The translations under genes and the position numbers were made by a program. A DNA stretch of 33,984 nt, taken from an uncultured Telmatospirillum sp. GTDB taxonomy: Bacteria; Pseudomonadota; Alphaproteobacteria; Rhodospirillales; Magnetospirillaceae. This document shows, one piece after another, positions 3,817 through 31,664 of this stretch. Where the stretch lies: contig CAIOJO010000430.1 of the NCBI GenBank assembly GCA_903858635.1, positions 1-33,984 of the forward strand. The letters run 5' to 3'. Position 1 is the stretch's first letter, and each line of letters starts with the position of its first letter. The notes beneath the pieces are model-generated. The model did no database searches. It was not told the origin of the DNA and saw only the letters and a list, made by a program, of their open reading frames with translations.

Positions 3817-4242
3817 ATGGTCTCCATTTATGCCATCTCCCCGCATAAGGCGGTCGATTTCCGTCTCGCCGCGCGCGATACGGTGGCGAAGGTTGTCCCG
3901 ACCGCTGCGGTTGTCCCTCTCGGCGTCGGCATGCCGCCGCCCCGCAAGGAACGGACGGTTGGCCGAATTTCGGCCGACCAACCGGCGGTGCCTCGTCCGT
4001 CCCGGTTGGCGGAAAGTCCGCCGGTGGGCGCCTTCCCCGCCCAACCCTTCGATCAAGCCGCGGGCATCGCCACGTCGGCGCCGGCCATTTGGGTGAACGC
4101 CGTGGCGATTGCCGCCTACCGAGCCTCGGCCGACCTTGGCTCGCCCCCTAGCCGCGGCGGCACCACGCCGTTGCTCGAGGGCGATTGGCGTAATCCGGGG
4201 GCGCCGACGCGGGCCGGCAGCGCCGTGAATTTGGTGGCGTGA
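3817..4242 (+). CDS. hypothetical protein, Ala/Pro-rich
   Basis: This 141-residue frame begins MVSIYAISPHKAVDFRLAAR. It keeps G or C at most third codon positions throughout, which argues that it is translated and not a shadow. The protein is rich in Ala, Pro, Val and Gly, with no signal peptide, membrane segment or motif that I recognise. There is no good Shine-Dalgarno sequence before the ATG, so the start is uncertain. An overlapping minus-strand frame (3784-4056) is Arg-rich and looks like a shadow. It lies between phaR and an XRE regulator, transcribed in the same direction. No function can be proposed. Confidence 0.5.
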   Translation: MVSIYAISPHKAVDFRLAARDTVAKVVPTAAVVPLGVGMPPPRKERTVGRISADQPAVPRPSRLAESPPVGAFPAQPFDQAAGIATSAPAIWVNAVAIAAYRASADLGSPPSRGGTTPLLEGDWRNPGAPTRAGSAVNLVA

Positions 4243-4689: not shown

Positions 4690-5142
4690 ATGACCGAGAA
4701 CTCCGAGGACCCCCCCTTCGAAGGACCCGTCAGTGACCAATCGAGGACGATTTTGAACAGTGAGGGTAAGGCGAGCAAGCCACTCAACCGCGCCAACGAC
4801 ACCGACCGCCATGTCGGCGCGCGGATCCGGGAACGGCGAATCATGCTGGGCTTCAGCCAGCAACAGATGGCCGACCTGATCGGGGTGACCTACCAGCAGG
4901 CGCACAAATACGAGCGCGGCATCAACCGAATTTCGGCCGGACGTCTTTACGAGATCGCCCAGGTCTTGGGCGTACCGGTGGGTTACTTCTTCGAAGGCTT
5001 GGAGAATCAGCGCGGCCCGGAACTCACGGCGCGGCAACGTATGTGCCTGGAGCTGGCCCGCAATTTCTCCAGTATCTCGAACGAGCGTCACCAGGAGGCG
5101 TTGAGCCAGTTGGCGCGCGCTTTGGCGGCTGAACACCGGTAA
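4690..5142 (+). CDS. XRE-family helix-turn-helix transcriptional regulator
   Basis: This 150-residue protein has an HTH_3 (Cro/C1-type) domain at about residues 38-95: VGARIRERRIMLGFSQQQMA, then DLIGVTYQQAHKYERGINRI and SAGRLYEIAQVLGVPVGYFF. It belongs to the short chromosomal XRE regulators common in alphaproteobacteria, whose targets are mostly unknown. The first 35 residues are polar and probably disordered. The ATG at 4690 follows AGGGAG at a good distance; an upstream in-frame ATG at 4597 lacks one and adds sequence outside the domain. The gene stands alone and converges on the TetR gene. Confidence 0.88.
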   Translation: MTENSEDPPFEGPVSDQSRTILNSEGKASKPLNRANDTDRHVGARIRERRIMLGFSQQQMADLIGVTYQQAHKYERGINRISAGRLYEIAQVLGVPVGYFFEGLENQRGPELTARQRMCLELARNFSSISNERHQEALSQLARALAAEHR

Positions 5143-7563: not shown

Positions 7564-8691
7564 TCAGAGCGGGTCGAGGTCGCCGCAATCCTGCAGGGCG
7601 GCGAAATCGGCGGCGTATCGGGCCAGTCGGCCTTCGCCGATGGCGCCGCGCAGGCCGCGCATCAGATCCTGATAATAATGCAGATTGTGCCAAGTCAGCA
7701 GCATCAAGCCGAGAACCTCCTCGGCCTTCGCCAGATGGTGCAGGTAGGCGCGGCTGTAGTTCCGGCAAGCGGGACAGCCGCAGCCTTCCTCGAGCGGCCG
7801 CCCATCGTCCTGGTGACGGGCGTTGCGGATATTGACCGTGCCGCGGCTGGTAAAGGCTTGGCCGGTGCGGCCGGAACGAGTGGGAAGCACGCAGTCGAAC
7901 ATGTCGATGCCGCGCAGCACCGCGCCGACGATGTCGGCCGGCTTGCCGACTCCCATCAGATAGCGCGGCCGGTCGGCCGGCAGCCACGGCACCGTTGCGT
8001 CGAGGATGCGGAACATCTCGTCCTGCCCCTCGCCCACCGCCAATCCGCCCACCGCATAGCCGTCGAAGCCGATGGCCAGCAGTGCCTCGACCGAGTGGCG
8101 CCGCAATTCCGGATAGACGCCGCCCTGGACGATGCCGAACAGGCCGTAGCCGGGTCGCGCCACGAAGGCGTCGCGCGAACGCTGCGCCCACCGCATCGAC
8201 AGCTGCATCGATTGCGCGGCCTGGTCCTCGCTGGCGGGAAAGGGGGTGCATTCGTCGAAACTCATGGTGATGTCGGCGTCGAGCTGCCGCTGGACTTCCA
8301 TCGAGCGTTCGGGAGTCAGCAGATGGCTGCTGCCGTCGAGATGGGACTGGAAGGTTACGCCTTGTTCATCGAGCTTGCGCAGCTTCGACAGGCTCATGAC
8401 CTGGAAACCGCCGGAATCGGTCAGGATGGGGCCCGGCCAGTTCATGAAGCGGTGCAATCCGCCAAGCCGCGCCACCCGCTCGGCGCCGGGACGCAGCATC
8501 AGGTGATAGGTGTTGCCGAGGACGATCTGGGCGCCGGTCGCCGTCACCGATTCCGGCATCATCGCCTTGACCGTTCCGGCCGTGCCGACCGGCATGAAGG
8601 CCGGCGTCTCGACCGTCCCATGCGCTGTCTCCAGCCGGCCCAGGCGAGCCGCACCGTCGGTCCCCAGAAGGTGGAAGGCGACGGGGCTCAC
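7564..8691 (-). CDS. tgt: queuine/preQ1 tRNA-guanine transglycosylase
   Basis: This 375-residue TIM-barrel enzyme exchanges guanine 34 of GUN-anticodon tRNAs for preQ1. [14 protein letters not shown] holds one active-site Asp and [18 protein letters not shown] the nucleophilic Asp region. The zinc site is [17 protein letters not shown] near residue 300 plus a later His in TWHNLHYY. Its ATG overlaps the queA stop by 4 nt. The length is normal for bacterial Tgt. Confidence 0.97.
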
Positions 8692-22252: not shown

Positions 22253-23557
22253 TTAGACCTGGTACGGATAGACCAGGTAGAAGGTCACCGACAGCGCCGC
22301 CAGCAGCCACATCGGCAGGTTGGTCTCCCGCCGCCGGCCGGCCAGCAGTTTCAGCAGCGGATAGCTGGCCAAGCCGGCCGTCATGCCGACGCCGATATTG
22401 TAGGAGAAACTGATCAGGCTGAGGGTCAGGAAGGCCGGGATGAATTCGGTCAGGTCGTGGAAATCGAGTTTGGCCACCGGCGCCATCATCGTGCTGCCCA
22501 CCAGGATCAGGGCGACGCCGTAGGCGTGCGGCGGCACCAGGGTGAACAGGGGCACGAAGAACAGCGCCAGCAGGAACAGCCCGGCGGTGACCACGGCGGT
22601 CAGGCCGGTGCGGCCGCCCGCCTCCAGTCCGGCCGCCGATTCGATGTAGACCCCCGAGGTGGTGGTTCCCAACAGCGGCGCCACCAGATTCGTCAGCGCA
22701 TCGGCCAGCATCGGCCGCTCGATCTGCGGCAGGTTGCCGTTGGCATCGAGCAGGCCGGCGCGGCTGGACAGGCCGATCAAGGTGCCAATGGTATCGACGA
22801 AGGCCATGACGAAGATGATCAGCACCACCGGCAGCGCCTTCGGGCTGAGGGCGGCGCCGATGTCCAACTGGCCCAGCAGCGGCGCCGGGCTGGGCGGCAA
22901 CGCGACGATCGCCTGCGGCAGCGGGGTGACTCCGAACAGCACCGATAAGAAGGTAATCGCCAGGATGCCGAGGATGATCGCCCCCGGCACCCGGCGGATC
23001 ATCAACCCGGCGGTGAGCAGCAGCCCGACGATGGCCAGCAGGGCCGGCGGCTGCGACAACGCCCCCAGGGCGACCGGGGCGCCGCGCACCCCAATCGTCA
23101 CCAGGCCGCATTCGTTCAGTCCGACGAAGGCGATGAACAGGCCGATGCCCACCGAGAAGCTGCATTTCAGGGACAGGGGAATGGCGTTGGCCATCCAGCC
23201 CCGCACCCGCAACAGGGTCAGCAGGGTGAAGGCCAGCCCGGCCAGGAAGATGGCCCCCAGCGCGGTCTGCCAGGGAAAGCCCATTGCCTTGACCACGGTA
23301 AAGGTGATGAAGGCATTCTCCCCCATATAGGGGGCGATGGCGAAGGGGCGGCGCGCCCACAGCCCCATCACCAGGCTGCCGAACACCGCGGTCAGAATGG
23401 TGACGGTCATCGACGGCCCGACCGGAAGTCCGGCCACCACGAGAATCGCCGGATTGACCACGATGACATAGGCCATGGTGAGAAAGGTGGTCAGGCCGGC
23501 AATCGCTTCCCGCCGTAAACTGGTGTGATGCTGGTCGAAAGCAAAAAACCGGCGCAT
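22253..23557 (-). CDS. NCS2-type guanine/hypoxanthine permease (AzgA-like)
   Basis: This inner-membrane transporter of 434 residues has about 12-14 hydrophobic segments. Family blocks are LRREAIAGLTTFLTMAYVIV near residue 13, YMGENAFITFTVV near 80, the permease signature in the middle with FVMAFVDTIGTLIGL, and TTTSGVYIESAAGLEAGGRT. It should take up adenine, guanine or hypoxanthine with protons. The ATG at 23557 is preferred because AAGGGG lies about 10 nt before it; ATG 23566 is too close to it. No purine genes are nearby. Confidence 0.9.
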   Translation of the reverse strand: MRRFFAFDQHHTSLRREAIAGLTTFLTMAYVIVVNPAILVVAGLPVGPSMTVTILTAVFGSLVMGLWARRPFAIAPYMGENAFITFTVVKAMGFPWQTALGAIFLAGLAFTLLTLLRVRGWMANAIPLSLKCSFSVGIGLFIAFVGLNECGLVTIGVRGAPVALGALSQPPALLAIVGLLLTAGLMIRRVPGAIILGILAITFLSVLFGVTPLPQAIVALPPSPAPLLGQLDIGAALSPKALPVVLIIFVMAFVDTIGTLIGLSSRAGLLDANGNLPQIERPMLADALTNLVAPLLGTTTSGVYIESAAGLEAGGRTGLTAVVTAGLFLLALFFVPLFTLVPPHAYGVALILVGSTMMAPVAKLDFHDLTEFIPAFLTLSLISFSYNIGVGMTAGLASYPLLKLLAGRRRETNLPMWLLAALSVTFYLVYPYQV

Positions 23558-23658
23558 CGAAGCCATCCCCCTTGCCAACAGTCTGCCACAGCGGTCGATG
23601 GCCGTCTCCATCCGCCTGGGAATCGACGGCCGCCCGCTTGCGCGATGCGGCTTTGTTG

Positions 23659-23683
23659 CGTAATATACGCAGTCTATATAGCG
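23659..23683 (+). promoter_or_regulatory. ModE-box-like site before the GIY-YIG-like gene
   Basis: CGTAATATA-N7-TATATAGCG has the architecture of the ModE operator (CGnTATATA, N6-7, TATATAnCG) with one mismatch in the left arm. It lies 39 bp before the start of the small gene at 23723. The total length, 25 bp, is the same as for the two sites near modE. Confidence 0.7.
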
Positions 23684-23722
23684 ATCGCCGATGATCGCAG
23701 GACGGGGCGAGGAACAGAGCCG

Positions 23723-24118
23723 ATGTGTGACGGTCGTGCGTGGTGCAGCAACAAGCTCGATTTCATCGCCGCGGCGGACCCGACACCGAAATGGGCCGGC
23801 TTCGCCTTCAACACCGGGCCGATGCCCGGTTCCGTGTCCGGCGTCTACCTCTACGGCCGTCGCGATGGCGAACGGGTCTATGCCGTGCATATCGGGGAAA
23901 CGGCCGATATCGGTCGCGCCGTGGCTAGGCTGGCCGAGTCGGTCGGGCCCCGGCTGGATGGGGCTGACCGCTTCTATTGGATGGCCGAGACCGATCCGGG
24001 CTTGCGCCGGCAGATCGTCGCCGCCTTGGTGGCGCGCTACCGGCCGGCAAAGCTGCCGGCAAGGCCGGAGTTCGAGCTGGCGGCCGCCGCTTGGGACGGT
24101 TCGACCCTCGGCCACTGA
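23723..24118 (+). CDS. degenerate GIY-YIG-like protein under a Mo-box
   Basis: This 131-residue protein has an N-terminal MCDGRAWCSNKLDF, then PGSVSGVYLYGRRDGERVYA and VHIGETADIGRAVARL, then RRQIVAALVARYRP. This order resembles GIY-YIG domain proteins (PGVYVF...YIGET...RL...R..IE.DL...Y.P). The second motif is VHIG instead of Y-I-G, and the position of the catalytic Glu is Val, so nuclease activity is unlikely. GAGGAA precedes the ATG. A ModE-type box lies just upstream, which ties it to molybdenum status. It converges on the DUF2325 gene. Family placement is by eye only. Confidence 0.65.
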   Translation: MCDGRAWCSNKLDFIAAADPTPKWAGFAFNTGPMPGSVSGVYLYGRRDGERVYAVHIGETADIGRAVARLAESVGPRLDGADRFYWMAETDPGLRRQIVAALVARYRPAKLPARPEFELAAAAWDGSTLGH

Positions 24119-24152
24119 AACCCGGGACCTTGCGGCTCGTCCCTGACCGCCG

Positions 24153-25445
24153 TCAATATTCGCTGGCGTCCGGCGAGCCCAGCGAGCGCAGGCGATCCAA
24201 CCCGACGAAAAAGCTGGCCATGCTGGCGCTGCGCAGCGGCAGATAGGGCTTGCCGGCCTGCCGGCACAGCCGCTTCAGGGTGGCGACGGCATCGTGGCTG
24301 ACGCAGTCGACCGGGAATAGCACGGCTTCCGCCCGGCCGACCATTCCCGCCAGCAGCCCCCTCTTGTCGTCGATGCCGCCGTCATGGTGCAGCAGCCTGA
24401 CTTCGGCTCGGGCCGCGGCGTTCTGCAGGTTGAGGATCAGGCCGGGACGACCGCCGACATAGAGCAGGGTGGCACCGGCGATCTCGGCGGCCGGAGCAGC
24501 CGGTTTGGTCCTTGGGTCGAGCGCCAATTGCCGCTCCGCGGCGGCCAATTCCTCGGCCAGGCATTGCTCGCGTTTGGTTGCCTCGTCGAGCCTGGTGGTC
24601 GCTTGCGCCAGATCCGCCCCGCCCTCTGCCGCCTTCTGTTCGGCCCGTTCGCGGCGGCCGGTTTCGGTCGACAGGCGGCGGCGCAATTGGGCGACCGCCT
24701 GACGCAATGCCGCAATCTCATCGGCCGGCGTGCCGGCTGAACCGGCTGTATCGGGTTCGAGCCCCCCCTGCTCTTCGACCAGCCGATGGGCCAGCATGTC
24801 GTTCAACTGCCGGATGGTCGCGTCGCGAGCCCGCAGCGTGGTTTGCAGCTTGTCTTCGATTTGCTGGGCCCGGGCGTGCAGCGCCGCGTTTTCCGCCTCC
24901 AAGGCATTCAGGCGGCGGATATCGGCGCGATTGGCGGCGCCGACCAGATGCGACAGCATGTGGACGTCGCTGAACACCGCGTCGATCAAGGCCTCCGTCG
25001 CCAGCGGATGGGTCAGCACCGCCCAATAGGCGCCGGGAATCTCGCCGCTGCGCTTGGCCTCGTCCCACAGGCGGCCCAGTTCGGTGGCATCCTTGGCCTT
25101 GGCGAATTGTTTCAAGGTCAGCTGATGGCGTCGGTCGAGGGTCTTCTGCAACAGCTTGCCGGCGAATCCCTGGTTCCCGGCAAGCCGCACGCCCTCGTTG
25201 TGCAGGGTGATCTCCGACAGCAGGTCGACATCGTAGCCGACCACTTTCCTGACCAGCTTGCGAAGTTCGCCGGGGGTCAGGCAAGTGCCAATGATGGAGC
25301 AATGGAAAAGGGAGGGAATCTCCCACAGCCTGGTTCGCCGGTGTTCCAGCAGCATGGCCAATTCGGCCTCGGCGGGTCGCGGCATCAGCCCGCCGGCGGC
25401 GGCCCTATCGGCGCCGTTGCGAGGCTTGGTCATCGGGATCTGCAT
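24153..25445 (-). CDS. DUF2325 coiled-coil protein
   Basis: This 430-residue protein has a helical N-terminal region (residues 30-180), a long coiled coil from about residue 180 to 310 (RLNALEAENAALHARAQQIE, later AALRQAVAQLRRRL), a Pro/Ala hinge, and a C-terminal DUF2325 domain at about 325-415 (LLYVGGRPGLILNLQNAAAR, HHDGG, CVSHDAVATLKRLCRQAGKP). DUF2325 domains resemble a Rossmann-like sensor; no activity is established. The ATG at 25445 has GGAG 9 nt upstream. A near-perfect ModE box lies 23 bp upstream in the spacer shared with modE, so expression probably depends on molybdate. Confidence 0.85.
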   Translation of the reverse strand: MQIPMTKPRNGADRAAAGGLMPRPAEAELAMLLEHRRTRLWEIPSLFHCSIIGTCLTPGELRKLVRKVVGYDVDLLSEITLHNEGVRLAGNQGFAGKLLQKTLDRRHQLTLKQFAKAKDATELGRLWDEAKRSGEIPGAYWAVLTHPLATEALIDAVFSDVHMLSHLVGAANRADIRRLNALEAENAALHARAQQIEDKLQTTLRARDATIRQLNDMLAHRLVEEQGGLEPDTAGSAGTPADEIAALRQAVAQLRRRLSTETGRRERAEQKAAEGGADLAQATTRLDEATKREQCLAEELAAAERQLALDPRTKPAAPAAEIAGATLLYVGGRPGLILNLQNAAARAEVRLLHHDGGIDDKRGLLAGMVGRAEAVLFPVDCVSHDAVATLKRLCRQAGKPYLPLRSASMASFFVGLDRLRSLGSPDASEY

Positions 25446-25467
25446 GGTCGGCAACTCCGCTCAACAC

Positions 25468-25492
25468 CGTTATATATATTGCATATATAGCG
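25468..25492. promoter_or_regulatory. near-perfect ModE box in the DUF2325-modE spacer
   Basis: CGTTATATA-N7-TATATAGCG matches the ModE operator consensus (CGnTATATA, N6-7, TATATAnCG) in every specified base. It lies 23 bp before the DUF2325 start and 88 bp before the modE start, so it can control the minus-strand gene directly and may affect modE. Confidence 0.8.
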
Positions 25493-25544
25493 CTGTCGGC
25501 AAGGGCCTTGGCCGGCGCAATCACCCATTGGCATCTCCGCCGCG

Positions 25545-25569
25545 CGCTGTATACTCGATATACACAACG
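25545..25569 (+). promoter_or_regulatory. degenerate ModE box just before modE
   Basis: CGCTGTATA-N7-TACACAACG has the same 25-bp frame as the other two boxes, with one mismatch in the left arm and two in the right. It ends 11 bp before the modE ATG, a position suited to autorepression. Confidence 0.55.
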
Positions 25570-25580
25570 AGGATGGGCGC

Positions 25581-26375
25581 ATGGCCGACGGGATGATCGA
25601 AGCGATGCTGGCGTTGCGCGGCAGGGGACAGGGCCCGATCGGCCGCGATCGCATCTCCATGCTGGAAGCGGTGGCCACCCATGGCAGCATCACCCAGGCG
25701 GCAAAGGCCCTGGGCTTCAGCTACAAGGCGGTGTGGGACGGCATCAACGCCATCAACAATCTGCTGCCGCGCCCGGCCCTGCTCGCCCAGGCCGGCGGCC
25801 GCGGCGGCGGCGGCGCCCTGCTGACCGAAGAAGGGCACCGGCTGATCACCGCCTTCCGGCGGCTCGAGGCAAAGCTGTCGCGCATCTCGCAGGCCATCGC
25901 CGAAGACGGGCTGGACAGCCATCCCGATCTCCTGTTCTGGAGCGTCGCCATGAAGACCAGTGCACGTAATGCTTTCCGCTGCCAAGTCACCGAGGTCAAA
26001 CGCGCCCCGGTGAACGTCGAAGTGGTGCTCAGGCTTTCCGAGAGCAACAATATCGTCGCCGTCATCACCAACGACAGCGCCGACGAACTGGGCATCATTC
26101 CCGGGCGCGACGCGATGGCGCTGGTCAAATCGTCCTTCGTCATGTTGGCTCCGGCCGACCAGATGCCCCGGGTCTCGACCCGCAACCGGATCATCGGGAC
26201 GGTGGTTGAACGGATCGATGGAGGGGTCAACAGCGAGATCATCCTCGATATCGGCGACGGCAAAACCCTGACCTCGGTGGTGACCAAGGACAGCGTCGAC
26301 GCGATGCCGATCGCGATCGGTGATCGGGTCTGCGCCTTCTTCATGGCCTCGCAGGTCATCCTGGCCACCGACTGA
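25581..26375 (+). CDS. modE: molybdate-responsive regulator ModE
   Basis: This 264-residue protein has an N-terminal LysR-type winged helix (GRDRISMLEAVATHGSITQA, then AKALGFSYKAVWDGI, residues 21-55). Two C-terminal Mop/TOBE domains follow, starting at SARNAFRC (127) and STRNRIIG (199), which bind molybdate or tungstate at the dimer interface. Loaded ModE usually represses high-affinity uptake genes and activates molybdoenzyme genes. GAGG precedes the ATG. It is followed by modA after 31 nt and preceded by ModE-type boxes, so it is probably autoregulated. Confidence 0.94.
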   Translation: MADGMIEAMLALRGRGQGPIGRDRISMLEAVATHGSITQAAKALGFSYKAVWDGINAINNLLPRPALLAQAGGRGGGGALLTEEGHRLITAFRRLEAKLSRISQAIAEDGLDSHPDLLFWSVAMKTSARNAFRCQVTEVKRAPVNVEVVLRLSESNNIVAVITNDSADELGIIPGRDAMALVKSSFVMLAPADQMPRVSTRNRIIGTVVERIDGGVNSEIILDIGDGKTLTSVVTKDSVDAMPIAIGDRVCAFFMASQVILATD

Positions 26376-26406: not shown

Positions 26407-27177
26407 ATGCGCAGAAAACACTTCGTCGCAGCCCTGTTGGCTGTCTGGCTCGGCCTGGCTGCCGCCACCCCGGCGCATGCCGAGGACGTGCTGGTGTTCG
26501 CCGCCGCCTCGCTGACCAATGCCCTGAACGAGGTGGGCGGACAGTTCACCGCCAAGACCGGCAACAAGATGGTGGCCTCCTATGCCGCCTCCTCGACCCT
26601 GGCCAAACAGATCGAACAAGGCGCCCCGGCCAATGTCTTCATCTCGGCCGACCTGCAGTGGATGGACTACCTGGCCGACAAGAAGCTGATCGACCCGGCC
26701 AGCCGGTTCAATCTGCTCGGCAACAGCCTGGTGCTGGTGGCGCCGGCCGATAGCGCCCTGCAGCGGATGGACCTCACGGCGACCACCGACATCGCTGCCC
26801 TGGCCGGCGACGGCCGCATCGCCACCGGCGATCCGGCCGCGGTGCCGGTCGGCCTCTATTTCAAACAGGCGATGGAACGGGCCGGCCAATGGGTGCGGGT
26901 CGAACCCAAGCTGGCGCGGGCCGAGTCGGTGCGCGCCGCGCTGGCCCTGGTCGAGCGCGGCGAGGTGCCGCTGGGCGTGGTCTACGCGACGGATGCGGCC
27001 ATTTCCGCCAAGGTCAAGGTGGTGGGCGTGTTCCCCGGGGCGCTGCACGACCCCATCCTCTACCCCTTTGCCCTGGTGGCCGAGCGAGAATCGGCGGCAG
27101 CCAAGGCGCTGCTCGACTTCCTGCGCAGCAACGAGGCGAAGGCGGTGTTCCTCCGCTACGGATTCACCGTCAACTGA
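26407..27177 (+). CDS. modA: molybdate ABC transporter periplasmic binding protein ModA
   Basis: This 256-residue protein has a signal peptide (RRKHFVAALLAVWLGLAAAT, cleavage after AHA at about residue 22-25). The mature ModA fold follows, with VFAAASLTNAL, YAASSTLAKQIEQGAPANVF, ISADLQWMDYL, NSLVLVAP, IATGDPAAVPVGLY and GVVYATDA, which hold the oxyanion-binding Ser, Ala and Tyr residues. AAAGGAG precedes the ATG. It would capture molybdate in the periplasm, but no modB or modC follows; the next gene is on the other strand 5 bp away. Confidence 0.94.
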   Translation: MRRKHFVAALLAVWLGLAAATPAHAEDVLVFAAASLTNALNEVGGQFTAKTGNKMVASYAASSTLAKQIEQGAPANVFISADLQWMDYLADKKLIDPASRFNLLGNSLVLVAPADSALQRMDLTATTDIAALAGDGRIATGDPAAVPVGLYFKQAMERAGQWVRVEPKLARAESVRAALALVERGEVPLGVVYATDAAISAKVKVVGVFPGALHDPILYPFALVAERESAAAKALLDFLRSNEAKAVFLRYGFTVN

Positions 27178-28117: not shown

Positions 28118-28561
28118 TCACGCAGCCCGCGACGCCCAGTGCCCGTCAGTCGCTTGGTCGTACTCGAACTCGAACGGCGGGGCATCCGGCAGCTTCGGGG
28201 TCGCTTCGATGAGGTCGGCGAGCCGGGGCCTCTCCCCGAGGTATTCGAGGCAGAGTTGCCGCAGCACTCGGTCGGCCCAAGCGGGAATCGGGGTTTCGCC
28301 GCTCTCCCACCGACTGACGGTGAGCAACTTCTTGCCCAGCTTCTCCCCGAGGGTGGTCTGGGTCAGCCCCATGACGTTGCGGAGGAAGCGGAACTCGTTG
28401 CCGGAAAGCTGGCGCTTGTGGCCGATCAGGTGCTCGGCAATGGCCCGCTCCAAGGCAGCCTCGTTCTCGACGATGACGGTCTCTCCGTAAGGGGTCTCCT
28501 CCCTCCGGTAGCCGCTGATCAGCCACACGTTGTCGAGGCCGCTTTCAGTGTACTGATACAT
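28118..28561 (-). CDS. MqsA/HigA-like HTH antitoxin
   Basis: This 147-residue protein begins MYQYTESGLDNVWLISGY, a start shared by a family of HTH antitoxins, and carries an XRE/MqsA-type helix-turn-helix near residues 65-105 (LRNVMGLTQTTLGEKLGKKL, VSRWESGE). It should neutralise the DUF4258 protein encoded just upstream and repress the operon. The ATG at 28561 was chosen because GGAG lies 6 nt before it and the family N-terminus starts there; it overlaps the toxin gene by 17 nt. Confidence 0.82.
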   Translation of the reverse strand: MYQYTESGLDNVWLISGYRREETPYGETVIVENEAALERAIAEHLIGHKRQLSGNEFRFLRNVMGLTQTTLGEKLGKKLLTVSRWESGETPIPAWADRVLRQLCLEYLGERPRLADLIEATPKLPDAPPFEFEYDQATDGHWASRAA

Positions 28562-28925
28562 CCCCGTCTCCATTATCCTCGTCGTCCTCGTCATTGGCCG
28601 CCTGGGGCGCGCGCCGCGTCTGTGGGATGATCGCGTAGCCGGTGATCACCAGGATGAACTCCTGCGGCACCAGAACCCCGGCAACCCGGCACCTCTGTTC
28701 GTCCACGTTCCTCTCGACGGTGAAGGTCCAACCGCCCGGCATCTTGAGGTCGGGGTAGGGACCCTCGACGATCGTTCCGTGCTCAAGGGCCGCCATGATC
28801 TCCTTCTTGGTGAGCGGCAGCTTGCCTGATGCCGGATCTCGTTTCTTCGCGTGCTCGGTGAGGCGTACCTTTTCGTACCATGGGGCCAGCTTGCGGATCT
28901 CGGCTTGGGCAGTTGCCTTGTTCAT
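28545..28925 (-). CDS. DUF4258 protein, probable toxin
   Basis: This 126-residue protein has the DUF4258 pattern: VRLTEHAKKRDPASGKLPLT, KKEIMAALEHGTIVEGPYPD, and strands with CRVAGVLVPQEFILVITGYA. DUF4258 proteins are related to small RelE/BrnT-fold toxins and are often paired with HTH antitoxins. The C-terminal 20 residues are acidic (DEDDEDNGDGD). The ATG at 28925 begins MNKATAQAEIRKLAPWYEKV; the frame is open further upstream but without domain sequence. It is the first gene of a two-gene toxin-antitoxin operon. Confidence 0.78.
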   Translation of the reverse strand: MNKATAQAEIRKLAPWYEKVRLTEHAKKRDPASGKLPLTKKEIMAALEHGTIVEGPYPDLKMPGGWTFTVERNVDEQRCRVAGVLVPQEFILVITGYAIIPQTRRAPQAANDEDDEDNGDGDVSVH

Positions 28926-29089
28926 CGTCCACCATTTATCAAAATGATATATCGTGATGTCCCGTGAGGTCAAGCCGAGACCGGGAGTGGCCAAAGCCCG
29001 CAAATTGGGTCGAGCCCCACATGTACGTCCAAGGATGATGCCACACACAAGTGGTTGCGCGCATACCAACGATGCGCTATGTTCCTCCC

Positions 29090-29106
29090 GACAGGAAATT
29101 CCTGTC
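29090..29106. promoter_or_regulatory. 17-bp palindrome, candidate operator
   Basis: GACAGGAA-A-TTCCTGTC is a perfect inverted repeat with a single central base. It lies in the 289-bp spacer between the divergent toxin-antitoxin operon and the excisionase-primase operon. It has the size and symmetry of a dimeric repressor site, such as for the HTH antitoxin or a phage-type repressor. Otherwise this spacer holds no gene; the AT-rich AAAATGATATATCG at its left edge may be the toxin promoter. Confidence 0.5.
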
Positions 29107-29214
29107 GCGGTCGGTGCTCGACCGTCGACCATTTTGGTCACCCACGCTGGGAAAGCCACCCGATAAGAGGGGCGGTGAGTCAGCGTGTTCGCGGCTCCGC
29201 CCTGGAGCCGTTCG

Positions 29215-29445
29215 ATGCTTCATCCCAGCGACACTTCCCGGCCCCACGAAACTCGTCAGGCCGAAGACCGTCTTCTCTGCCCTATTCCCGAAGCCGCGCA
29301 TCTGCTCGGTGTCGGTCGGTCATCAATCTACGCTCTGCTCGACGCGGGCGCCTTGGCCTCGGTGAACATCGGCCGCCGTCGTCTCGTCACCCGAGCCAGC
29401 ATTGATGCGCTCATCGCCAGCCGCCTCGTCGGCGGAGCAAAGTGA
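29215..29445 (+). CDS. excisionase-type helix-turn-helix DNA-binding protein
   Basis: This 76-residue protein contains PIPEAAHLLGVGRSSIYALL and DAGALASVNIGRRRLVTRAS followed by IDALIASRL, the HTH_17/MerR-like excisionase pattern. Such proteins act as directionality factors or small regulators in integrative elements. The ATG at 29215 has TGGAG 8 nt upstream; a start 10 codons earlier is possible. Its stop overlaps the primase start (TGATG), so the two are coupled. Confidence 0.78.
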   Translation: MLHPSDTSRPHETRQAEDRLLCPIPEAAHLLGVGRSSIYALLDAGALASVNIGRRRLVTRASIDALIASRLVGGAK

Positions 29446-31664
29446 TGGACGGGCACAGCGCCATGAAGAGTGCCGATCTCGCCCGGCACATCGAACCGGT
29501 CGCCCGCACGTTGCTGGGCGAACCGAACCCCAATCTCTCGAAGCCAAACGAACTAAGGTTCGGCACCCACGGCAGCGTTTCCGTGAAGGTCGCTGACCAC
29601 GAAAACGCTGGAGCGTGGTTCGATCACGAAAGAAACGAGGGCGGTGGCGTCCTCGACCTCATCTGCCACAAGACGGGCCTAACCAACGGCCAGGCGATCG
29701 AATGGATGAGATCCAAACTGGGAATTGACCCCGACGACAGAAGGCCGACAATCAAACGACGCCTCGTCGCCATGTACGACTACTGCGACGCCGACAGCCA
29801 CTTGCTATATCAGGTTTGCCGTTACCATCCCAAGGACTTCCGCCAGCGCCGCCCAGACGGCAAGGGCGGTTGGAGTTGGGACCTCAAAGGCATCAAGCCA
29901 ACGCTGTACCGCCTCCCGGAACTGCTGAGCGCCATAGCAGCCGGGAACCGCGTCTTTGTCTGCGAGGGAGAAAAAGACGTCGACAATCTGCGCGATGTCG
30001 GCTTGACCGCCACCACCAACCACGGCGGTGCGGGAAAATTCGCCGAGTGCTTTGGCAAACATTTTCATGGCGCAGACGTCGTCGTTTTGCCGGACAACGA
30101 TCCCGCCGGTCGCAAGCATGCCCAGGATGTCGCCCAAACTCTGATGCCCTTCGCCGCGAGCGTCCGCATTGTCGATCTTATAGACGACATGCCTGGCTTT
30201 TCCCTCAAGGGCGATGTCAGCGACTGGCTTGCAGCCGGTGGTACGTCAGTTCGCCTTGAAACGCTCGCAAACGCGGCGTCAGTCTGGCAAGGGGCAATCC
30301 CGCCAGCCTCCGCCGCCCAGGTCGTCGCTCCCGTGCCGCCCGAATTTACCGACGATGCCCTCGCGCTCGAATTCAGCAAGCGCCACGCCGACAATCTGCG
30401 TCATGTCGCCGTGTGGGGCAAATGGCTCGAATGTGACGGTAAGCGTTGGCGCCAAGACGAAACCATGCGGTCATTCGACTTGGCGCGGATGGTCTGTCGT
30501 GACGCCGCCGCTCGTTCCGACAACGAGAGGGTGGCGGCCCGCTGCGCCGCCGCCATGACCGTCGCGGCCGTCGAACGTTTGGCCAAGGCCGACCGCCGAC
30601 ACGCGACCACGACGGACATCTGGGACGCCGATCCTTGGCTGCTGAACACCCCGGCTGGCGTGGTCGACCTGAGGACCGGGAAAATCGGTGCGCATCGCCC
30701 GGACCTGTACATGACCAAGATCACCGGGGCACCAACTAACGGCACCTGTCCTGGGTGGCTGGCGTTCCTGGACAAGGTCACGGGGCGAGATCCCGACCTC
30801 CAGGCGTTTCTCCGGCGGGTCGCCGGGTACTGCCTGACCGGGGTCACCCGCGAGCATGCCCTGTTCTTCTGCCACGGCACCGGCGGGAACGGTAAGGGCG
30901 TGTTCATCGGGACCTTGACAGGAGTCTTGGGCGACTACGCGACGGTGGCGCCGATGGATACTTTCACCGCGAGCGGCAACGACCGGCACCCCACCGATCT
31001 CGCGGGATTGCGCGGCGCCCGCCTCGTTTCGGCCCAAGAGACGGAGGAGGGACGGTGTTGGGCTGAATCGCGGATCAAAGCGCTGACCGGCGGAGATCCT
31101 GTCAGCGCACGTTTCATGCGGCAGGATTTCTTCACGTTCACGCCGCAGTTCAAACTAGTGATCGCTGGGAATCATCGCCCCGGCCTCCGCAACGTCGATG
31201 AGGCCATTCGTCGGCGTCTCCATCTTGTTCCCTTCACGGTGACGATCCCACCCTCAGAACGCGATTCGACCTTGCCGGACAGGTTGAAGGCCGAGTGGCC
31301 AGGCATCCTGGCGTGGATGATCGAAGGGTGCCTGGAATGGCAGCGCATGGGCTTGGCGCCGCCTCCCGCCGTCCTATCGGCGACCGACGAATACCTGGGA
31401 GCCGAGGACGCCGTTTCACTCTGGATGGCCGAATGCTTGAAGTCTTCGGCGTGCGCCGTTGAGTCGTCAGCCGATCTTTATGCTTCCTGGAAGCGCTGGG
31501 CCGAGGCGGCCGGGGAAGTCCCTGGAACGCAGAAGCGGTTGTCCCAAAACCTTATCGCCAGAGGCGCCAGGCCGAAACGGCAGGGAGGCACCGGAAAGAG
31601 CGGGTTTGAAGGCTTTGGGATCATCCGCCGCGATTACACCGATGAAGTCCGTTATGGCACCTGA
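29445..31664 (+). CDS. P4-type phage/satellite primase-helicase
   Basis: This replication protein of 739 residues has an N-terminal zinc-less primase-like region, a TOPRIM domain at about residues 165-260 (VFVCEGEKDVDNL, VVVLPDNDPAGRKHAQDV), a D5_N region (about 380-480, TPAGVVDLRTG) and a C-terminal SF3 helicase. The helicase has Walker A GTGGNGKGVF near 485, RGARLVSAQETEEG as Walker B, and KLVIAGNHRPGLRNVDEAIR as motif C with the arginine finger RRRL. P4 alpha-like proteins start replication of satellites and integrated elements. The ATG at 29445 has GGAG 7 nt upstream; a GTG directly before it is also in frame. Confidence 0.92.
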   Translation: MDGHSAMKSADLARHIEPVARTLLGEPNPNLSKPNELRFGTHGSVSVKVADHENAGAWFDHERNEGGGVLDLICHKTGLTNGQAIEWMRSKLGIDPDDRRPTIKRRLVAMYDYCDADSHLLYQVCRYHPKDFRQRRPDGKGGWSWDLKGIKPTLYRLPELLSAIAAGNRVFVCEGEKDVDNLRDVGLTATTNHGGAGKFAECFGKHFHGADVVVLPDNDPAGRKHAQDVAQTLMPFAASVRIVDLIDDMPGFSLKGDVSDWLAAGGTSVRLETLANAASVWQGAIPPASAAQVVAPVPPEFTDDALALEFSKRHADNLRHVAVWGKWLECDGKRWRQDETMRSFDLARMVCRDAAARSDNERVAARCAAAMTVAAVERLAKADRRHATTTDIWDADPWLLNTPAGVVDLRTGKIGAHRPDLYMTKITGAPTNGTCPGWLAFLDKVTGRDPDLQAFLRRVAGYCLTGVTREHALFFCHGTGGNGKGVFIGTLTGVLGDYATVAPMDTFTASGNDRHPTDLAGLRGARLVSAQETEEGRCWAESRIKALTGGDPVSARFMRQDFFTFTPQFKLVIAGNHRPGLRNVDEAIRRRLHLVPFTVTIPPSERDSTLPDRLKAEWPGILAWMIEGCLEWQRMGLAPPPAVLSATDEYLGAEDAVSLWMAECLKSSACAVESSADLYASWKRWAEAAGEVPGTQKRLSQNLIARGARPKRQGGTGKSGFEGFGIIRRDYTDEVRYGT

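Follow-up and report, generated by a model that had tools for sequence, protein, structure and literature searches.

The DNA analyzed here, a stretch of 33,984 nucleotides (nt) from an uncultured Telmatospirillum sp. (contig CAIOJO010000430.1 of assembly GCA_903858635.1) that is called the window throughout, carries three sites of 25 base pairs (bp) among four consecutive genes: a small gene named GIY-like after its resemblance to GIY-YIG nucleases (23723..24118, + strand, ATG at 23723), a gene for a protein with a DUF2325 domain (24153..25445, - strand, ATG at 25445), modE (25581..26375, + strand, ATG at 25581), and modA (26407..27177, + strand). An earlier note on this DNA had read the sites as ModE boxes of one frame and length that precede the first three of these genes, and had proposed that the GIY-like and DUF2325 proteins are both under molybdate control, possibly as sensors or as storage or insertion factors. 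The sites and the gene order were recovered as described, and the overall reading that we consider likely is that the sites are ModE operators, that the GIY-like family has an accessory part in acquiring molybdenum, and that the DUF2325 gene is a lineage-specific addition.

Three predicted ModE boxes around modE

Sites were searched with the pattern CG-N-TATATA-N7-TATATA-N-CG (total length 25 bp, at most three mismatches), which matched three places in the window and none in any of 100 dinucleotide-preserving shuffles of it. A weight matrix trained on the modE-proximal sites of 23 relatives, none of them from the own genome, ranked the same three places first: the box between the DUF2325 gene and modE (25468..25492; no mismatch, 35.1 bits), the box before the GIY-like gene (23659..23683; one mismatch, 31.1 bits), and the box at modE itself (25545..25569; three mismatches, 25.6 bits), none of which was assigned a strand. 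The next scores in the window were 19.5 bits (at 28930) and 11.5 bits, and the best score in 500 random 430-bp stretches was 20.9 bits. Each box closely precedes a start codon (by 11-39 nt), the distance being 22 nt from the 25468 box to the ATG of the DUF2325 gene, 11 nt from the 25545 box to that of modE, and 39 nt from the 23659 box to that of the GIY-like gene.

Similar sites were found at the modE genes of related bacteria, for which the loci of 29 relatives were used (taken from 30 loci among the matches listed, the window excluded). In 23 of the 29 relatives the 500 bp before the modE match contained a box with at most three mismatches, whereas the other six had none there even at four mismatches. 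A box ended 10-61 nt before the modE match in 16 of the 29, and several relatives had at least two boxes upstream of modE. Over the 30 loci the pattern occurred 40 times and its reversed control 12 times, and other loci totaling 416,126 bp yielded two places with at most three mismatches, of which one shares its contig with a modE gene. The window sites have a spacer of seven nucleotides (N7) and not the E. coli spacing of six (N6), and the modE boxes of the relatives were likewise found with N7. The designation of the sites as ModE boxes of a ModE regulon is backed by their sequence, their position, the adjacent full modE gene, and the boxed modE loci of the relatives.

The modE product (264 amino acids, aa) has a LysR-type helix-turn-helix (HTH; PF00126) and two TOBE (Mop) domains (PF03459, two stretches); the latter also matched TIGR00638 in two stretches (138.4 bits against a cut-off of 55). 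It scored far below the curated NCBI cut-off for full-length ModE (NF007957, 143.3 versus 369 bits) and just under that for the repressor domain (TIGR00637, 94.6 versus 98.5 bits). A sigma-70-like promoter of modE, TTGGCA-N16-TATACT, was predicted at 25528..25555 on the + strand with its -10 element inside the 25545 box, and was the one promoter found on scanning positions 23450-25750, compared with a mean of 0.4 in shuffles. Because the 25545 site overlaps this promoter-like -10 element and sits in the usual modE-proximal place, it is the predicted classical autoregulatory site of modE. Its clearest inverted repeat is TGTATA-N5-TATACA; when the site is aligned to the N7 pattern, two of its three mismatches fall in the right arm, TACACA. 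It is nonetheless included in the set because genome G024, which has the closest ModE relative (79% identical), carries CGCTATATAAGAGACTTACACAACG likewise 11 nt from modE, with a matching right end.

Downstream of modE, modA encodes a predicted molybdate-binding protein of 256 aa (TIGR01256, 218.9 bits against a cut-off of 62.5), and modBC are absent from the window. The only modB above cut-off in the own genome (one of 13 matches) lies on contig C438 (locus L166) beside an ABC ATPase/TOBE gene, at a locus with no box at up to four mismatches and no modA match. Short HTH-only ModE matches are numerous in relatives; in genome G036 an HTH-only ModE-like gene (L044:17592-18020, 142 aa) adjoins NifQ and is accompanied by a box at L044:18105-18129 (three mismatches, 24.8 bits).

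The DUF2325 gene and the 25468 box

The DUF2325 protein (430 aa) consists of a helical N-terminal part, a long coiled coil, and a C-terminal domain that matched PF10087 well above the gathering cut-off (E 1.5e-14, 54.3 versus 33.6 bits). Its structure model reached a predicted local distance difference test (pLDDT) score of 83.6, and a fold search returned generic Rossmann/receiver-like matches confined to about residues 323-426. A DUF2325 match was found in 45 of 149 genomes, and 37 of these genomes have, by our reading, the long form, which includes the helical and coiled-coil parts. Many long orthologs carry a CxxxC...DLCGRC motif immediately ahead of the domain, at a place just before residue 326 in the numbering of the window protein. 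The motif is missing from the window protein itself and from several others.

When related genomes were scanned for boxes, none of the loci of long DUF2325 orthologs (29 out of the 36 others were examined) had a box with at most three mismatches and a spacer of 5-8. The best matrix score in their upstream regions was 13.9 bits, far under those of real boxes, and two of the 29 regions (13.9 and 11.8 bits) scored above the 95% level for random stretches, roughly as many as chance would give. The gene is not near modE in the modE loci of 20 relatives, nor in the two loci that carry orthologs of the GIY-like gene (L043 and L044). Full-length ModE, counted at E < 1e-40 in co-occurrence lists read by hand, was absent from 18 of the 37 genomes with a long DUF2325 protein. 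Across the 149 genomes it was present in 19 of these 37 and in 32 of the 112 others (p 0.016), a comparison confounded by kinship; within family f1 the corresponding counts were 14 of 18 and 25 of 37 (p 0.54). The neighborhoods of 20 larger DUF2325 loci had no neighbor family common to more than four (PAS-sensor-like in four, bacterioferritin-like in three, named by eye), in a clustering that placed even the DUF2325 genes together for no more than 16 of the 20 loci. A role of DUF2325 as a general molybdenum protein was rejected, since in the loci examined ortholog boxes and a modE neighborhood were not found and ModE is often absent.

Because neither ortholog boxes nor a link to ModE was found, the 25468 box would represent either a lineage-specific recruitment of the DUF2325 gene or a second operator of modE. 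In the latter case both boxes between the two genes, with centers 77 bp apart, would serve modE-modA only and the DUF2325 gene would be a bystander. That alternative has a real if lesser claim: it agrees with the results for the orthologs and with the relatives that have at least two boxes before modE. Set against it are the autoregulatory place, already taken by the 25545 box, and the distance of 22 nt to the DUF2325 ATG; recruitment is favored because this distance resembles the 21 nt between a box and the modA ATG in genomes G002 and G036. We regard control of the DUF2325 gene by the 25468 box as reasonably probable in this genome. Molybdate control of this protein, as claimed in the earlier note, is accordingly retained as a possibility for this genome only, and the predicted picture is of a widespread protein with no general molybdenum link that is probably a lineage-specific addition to the regulon here.

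A side observation concerns short DUF2325 genes (18 loci, L130-L147). At the 16 of these loci in which the gene was called, two neighbor families recur in eight loci each and two in five each. By eye these neighbors look like the shell and cargo of a family-2 encapsulin and like genes for cysteine synthesis.

The GIY-like gene and its molybdenum context

The GIY-like gene encodes a protein of 131 aa with the N-terminus MCDGR-WC. Strong relatives were found in two of the 148 other relatives searched (genomes G034 and G036), together with a weak one in G062; within 317 genomes of the order, the own genome included, three had strong matches and two more had weak ones. In the class and phylum samples, beyond the own genome, weak matches only were found (four more in 385 and two more in 398 genomes). 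The two strong relatives are 53-60% identical to the window protein, varying by tool, and all three orthologs share Cys2 and Cys8. In the three ortholog pairs, codon differences at third positions numbered 68, 60, and 53, compared with 36/30, 35/25, and 21/25 at the other positions, and because third positions are the most variable in every pair the gene behaves as a real protein gene. No match to the gene was found in plasmids, none of 12 pattern matches in viral contigs was a relative, and PHROGs gave nothing below 0.2 for the window protein.

All three intact members have a molybdenum neighborhood or a box. In G034 a box (L043:1639-1663; three mismatches, 25.0 bits) lies 75 nt upstream of the gene, and none of 3000 Markov resamples of the 200-bp upstream region reached 25 bits; the neighbors are MoeA, two TonB proteins, ExbD, FecCD, a periplasmic binding protein, and a receptor-plug protein. 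In G036 the gene is modE's immediate successor, and beyond it lie modA, an ABC ATPase/permease fusion (modCB), and NifQ. A fourth instance is a remnant on contig C19 of the own genome, where a box with two mismatches (30.5 bits) is followed after 40 nt by ATGTGCGACGG (MCDG), the start of a GIY-like gene that then breaks off. This truncated second copy (L005, 16960) is near ExbB, TonB, and a DUF2478-DUF4213-DUF364 fusion gene, and 41 nt of the remnant are 85% identical to the GIY-like promoter of G034 (E 1e-6 in a small local search). The contig and the window were assumed to be of one organism, in an assembly listed at 3.57% contamination. The claim of molybdate control stands on firmer ground for the GIY-like gene, which is boxed in two genomes and has molybdenum-related neighbors in a third.

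In GIY-YIG nucleases an Arg and a Glu are catalytic. The window protein has their GVY ... YVG(E) ... helix ... YRP layout, known from PF01541 and the N-terminal domain of UvrC, and differs in its extra MCDGR-WC N-terminus and at the catalytic places, where A66 and V99 (placed by UvrC alignment) replace Arg and Glu; Ala and Val occupy these places in all three molybdenum-linked proteins. Neither the window protein nor its two orthologs matched PF01541 at E up to 10. The predicted link to GIY-YIG is transitive, via the G062 protein, which matched the GIY-like protein at 4e-10 in a single blastp comparison and at 1.4e-10 in a profile search. Proteins of G062, G374, and G524 have PF01541 matches under cut-off, and their joint profile aligned with the GIY-like profile in hhalign at 96.1%. 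With G062 included in the profile, UvrC chains made up five of eight PDB rows (E 0.09-0.45). The GIY-like protein is probably a GIY-YIG protein by ancestry and probably not a nuclease by activity, and the label "degenerate GIY-YIG" of the earlier note appears fair.

Several results weigh against the overall reading. The link to GIY-YIG depends on G062 as intermediate, and the three-member profile without it recovered no UvrC row. The 225 bp upstream of the GIY-like gene of G036 contained no box (best score -7.0), and inspection by eye showed a hairpin between this gene and modE. The known intact members number only three, and each comes from a fragmented assembly. Among five remote relatives, the catalytic Arg is kept in G062, G374, and G524 (in G062 and G374 together with the Glu) and is replaced by Val in G649 and by Ala in G105, which by eye also has Val at the Glu place. 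The G105 relative (L179:8210-8608, 133 aa) sits among genes that by eye are electron-transfer flavoprotein (ETF)-like and cobalamin-adenosyltransferase-like, and no ModE box was found in 18 kb there. Because this degenerate relative lies outside a molybdenum context, catalytic loss is not tied to molybdenum, and its use as a mark of the molybdenum-linked family is weakened by the G105 and G649 relatives.

The G105 relative, together with the small number of members, lends some weight to the alternative that the GIY-like protein has no molybdenum role and is a chance passenger, or that it is an active nuclease or has an unrelated fold. The protein also reached no Pfam or NCBIfam cut-off (its only match at E up to 10 was PF01636, 0.0028, 17.9 versus 23.2 bits), and its structure model was poor (pLDDT 43.9, too low for a fold search). 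We hold this alternative to be improbable, as the catalytic equivalents are replaced in all three proteins, and a molybdenum neighborhood or box accompanies each of them as well as the C19 remnant. Less probable still is that the 23659 box controls a different gene, the NCS2-type permease (22253..23566, - strand, PF00860) that is divergent from the GIY-like gene. The permease could share the box, which is 92 nt away from its start in the intergenic region common to both genes. Against sole control of the permease, a box still stands ahead of MCDG in G034 and in the C19 remnant, where the genes on the box's other side are different ones, and no match to the permease was found in the 22 loci searched (the 20 modE loci, L043, and L044).

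Pattern matches in the own genome and proposed regulation

In the own genome (G000; 6.13 Mb in 568 contigs), with the reversed pattern as control and total counts at up to three mismatches compared, the pattern was found at eight places and the control at seven, so that matches with three mismatches alone carry no weight, a point against the present reading. The only places with zero and one mismatch are the 25468 and 23659 sites of the window, and the three with two mismatches are all on contig C19; with a spacer of N6, only places with three mismatches were obtained (five, versus three in the control). That the sites are AT-rich palindromes with no ModE function, to which the equal counts would be favorable, is barely credible given this confinement of the best sites to the window, the ranking of exactly these three by a matrix from other species, and their conserved position relative to modE.

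According to the favored reading of the sites as operators of the neighboring ModE, molybdate-bound ModE would occupy them, mask the promoters, and hold expression of the genes low, and the genes would be switched on when molybdenum is scarce. Repression is proposed because known ModE and MopA/MopB proteins act in this way. The 25545 site would control modE-modA, the promoter of the DUF2325 gene would in this genome be under the 25468 box, and the 23659 site would control the small protein of a very rare GIY-YIG-derived family that lacks the catalytic Arg and Glu and has an N-terminus with Cys2 and Cys8. By its neighbors (modE, modA, modCB, and nifQ, or moeA with TonB, ExbD, and FecCD), this family would be an accessory of molybdenum acquisition, its members most likely acting as non-catalytic binding or adaptor proteins in molybdenum uptake or hand-over during molybdenum limitation. 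A more specific proposal, doubtful as it stands, is that in some Rhodospirillales an emptied GIY-YIG nuclease fold with a new Cys-containing N-terminus was reused as a molybdenum-limitation protein in a ModE-controlled, TonB-dependent route of molybdenum (or tungsten) uptake and cofactor delivery.

ModE boxes as such are already known. In the parts of the sources consulted, the consensus of E. coli and Geobacter has a spacer of six (PMC545781, PMC2700814); the window resembles these systems in the two TATATA arms flanked by CG, in their position upstream of modE and mod genes, and in a ModE with an HTH and two TOBE domains, and differs in the spacer of seven and in the added GIY-like gene, perhaps with the DUF2325 gene in this genome. 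In Rhodobacter capsulatus, another alphaproteobacterium, the ModE-like repressors MopA and MopB repress mopA-modABC, morAB, and anfA via Mo-boxes when molybdate is present, and the sections consulted mention neither a GIY-like nor a DUF2325 target (PMC6925177, PMC7294313). In the open-access literature, the titles and abstract beginnings among the matches listed did not report a GIY-like gene or DUF2325 as a ModE target, and the one paper among them joining GIY-YIG, ModE, and molybdate was on type VI secretion and unrelated. New here are a protein family that has no name and whose connection to molybdenum consists of a box, a neighborhood, and a boxed remnant, and the ModE-boxed TonB-receptor clusters described below. 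If correct, these findings would make the way in which such bacteria acquire molybdenum when it is scarce open to direct tests, and would show a nuclease fold put to use in handling metals.

Candidate ModE-boxed TonB-receptor clusters are present in three genomes, and in two of these the cluster includes a DUF2478-DUF4213-DUF364 protein. On C19 (L005, G000:C19:3000-22999), with boxes at 8174, 16895, and 19565, the cluster comprises genes for a radical SAM protein, a TonB receptor, FecCD, a binding protein, ExbB/TonB, and the DUF2478-DUF4213-DUF364 fusion; one box, other than that of the remnant, lies 84 nt before the radical SAM gene, with the TonB receptor, FecCD, and binding protein nearby. 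In genome G024 (L169, contig C44) a box with one mismatch at 4923-4947 is followed by a TonB receptor, a binding protein, and a DUF2478-DUF4213-DUF364 protein that shares 70% identity with the one on C19. In G034 (L167, contig C255) a TonB receptor and a binding protein follow a second box at 4162-4186, which is located between the receptor and a ModE-like HTH gene cut by the contig end. For DUF364 proteins, heavy-metal chelation has been proposed and a genome association with molybdate transport has been reported, the latter for amb0153 among others (PMC2954201); those of C19 and G024 differ in being fused to DUF2478 and DUF4213 and in lying near ModE boxes and TonB receptors.

Further downstream in the window, beyond modA, a probable integrated element with a P4-type phage/plasmid primase occupies positions 28545-31664, and the palindrome at 28930 that gave the fourth-best matrix score lies directly upstream of the primase gene.

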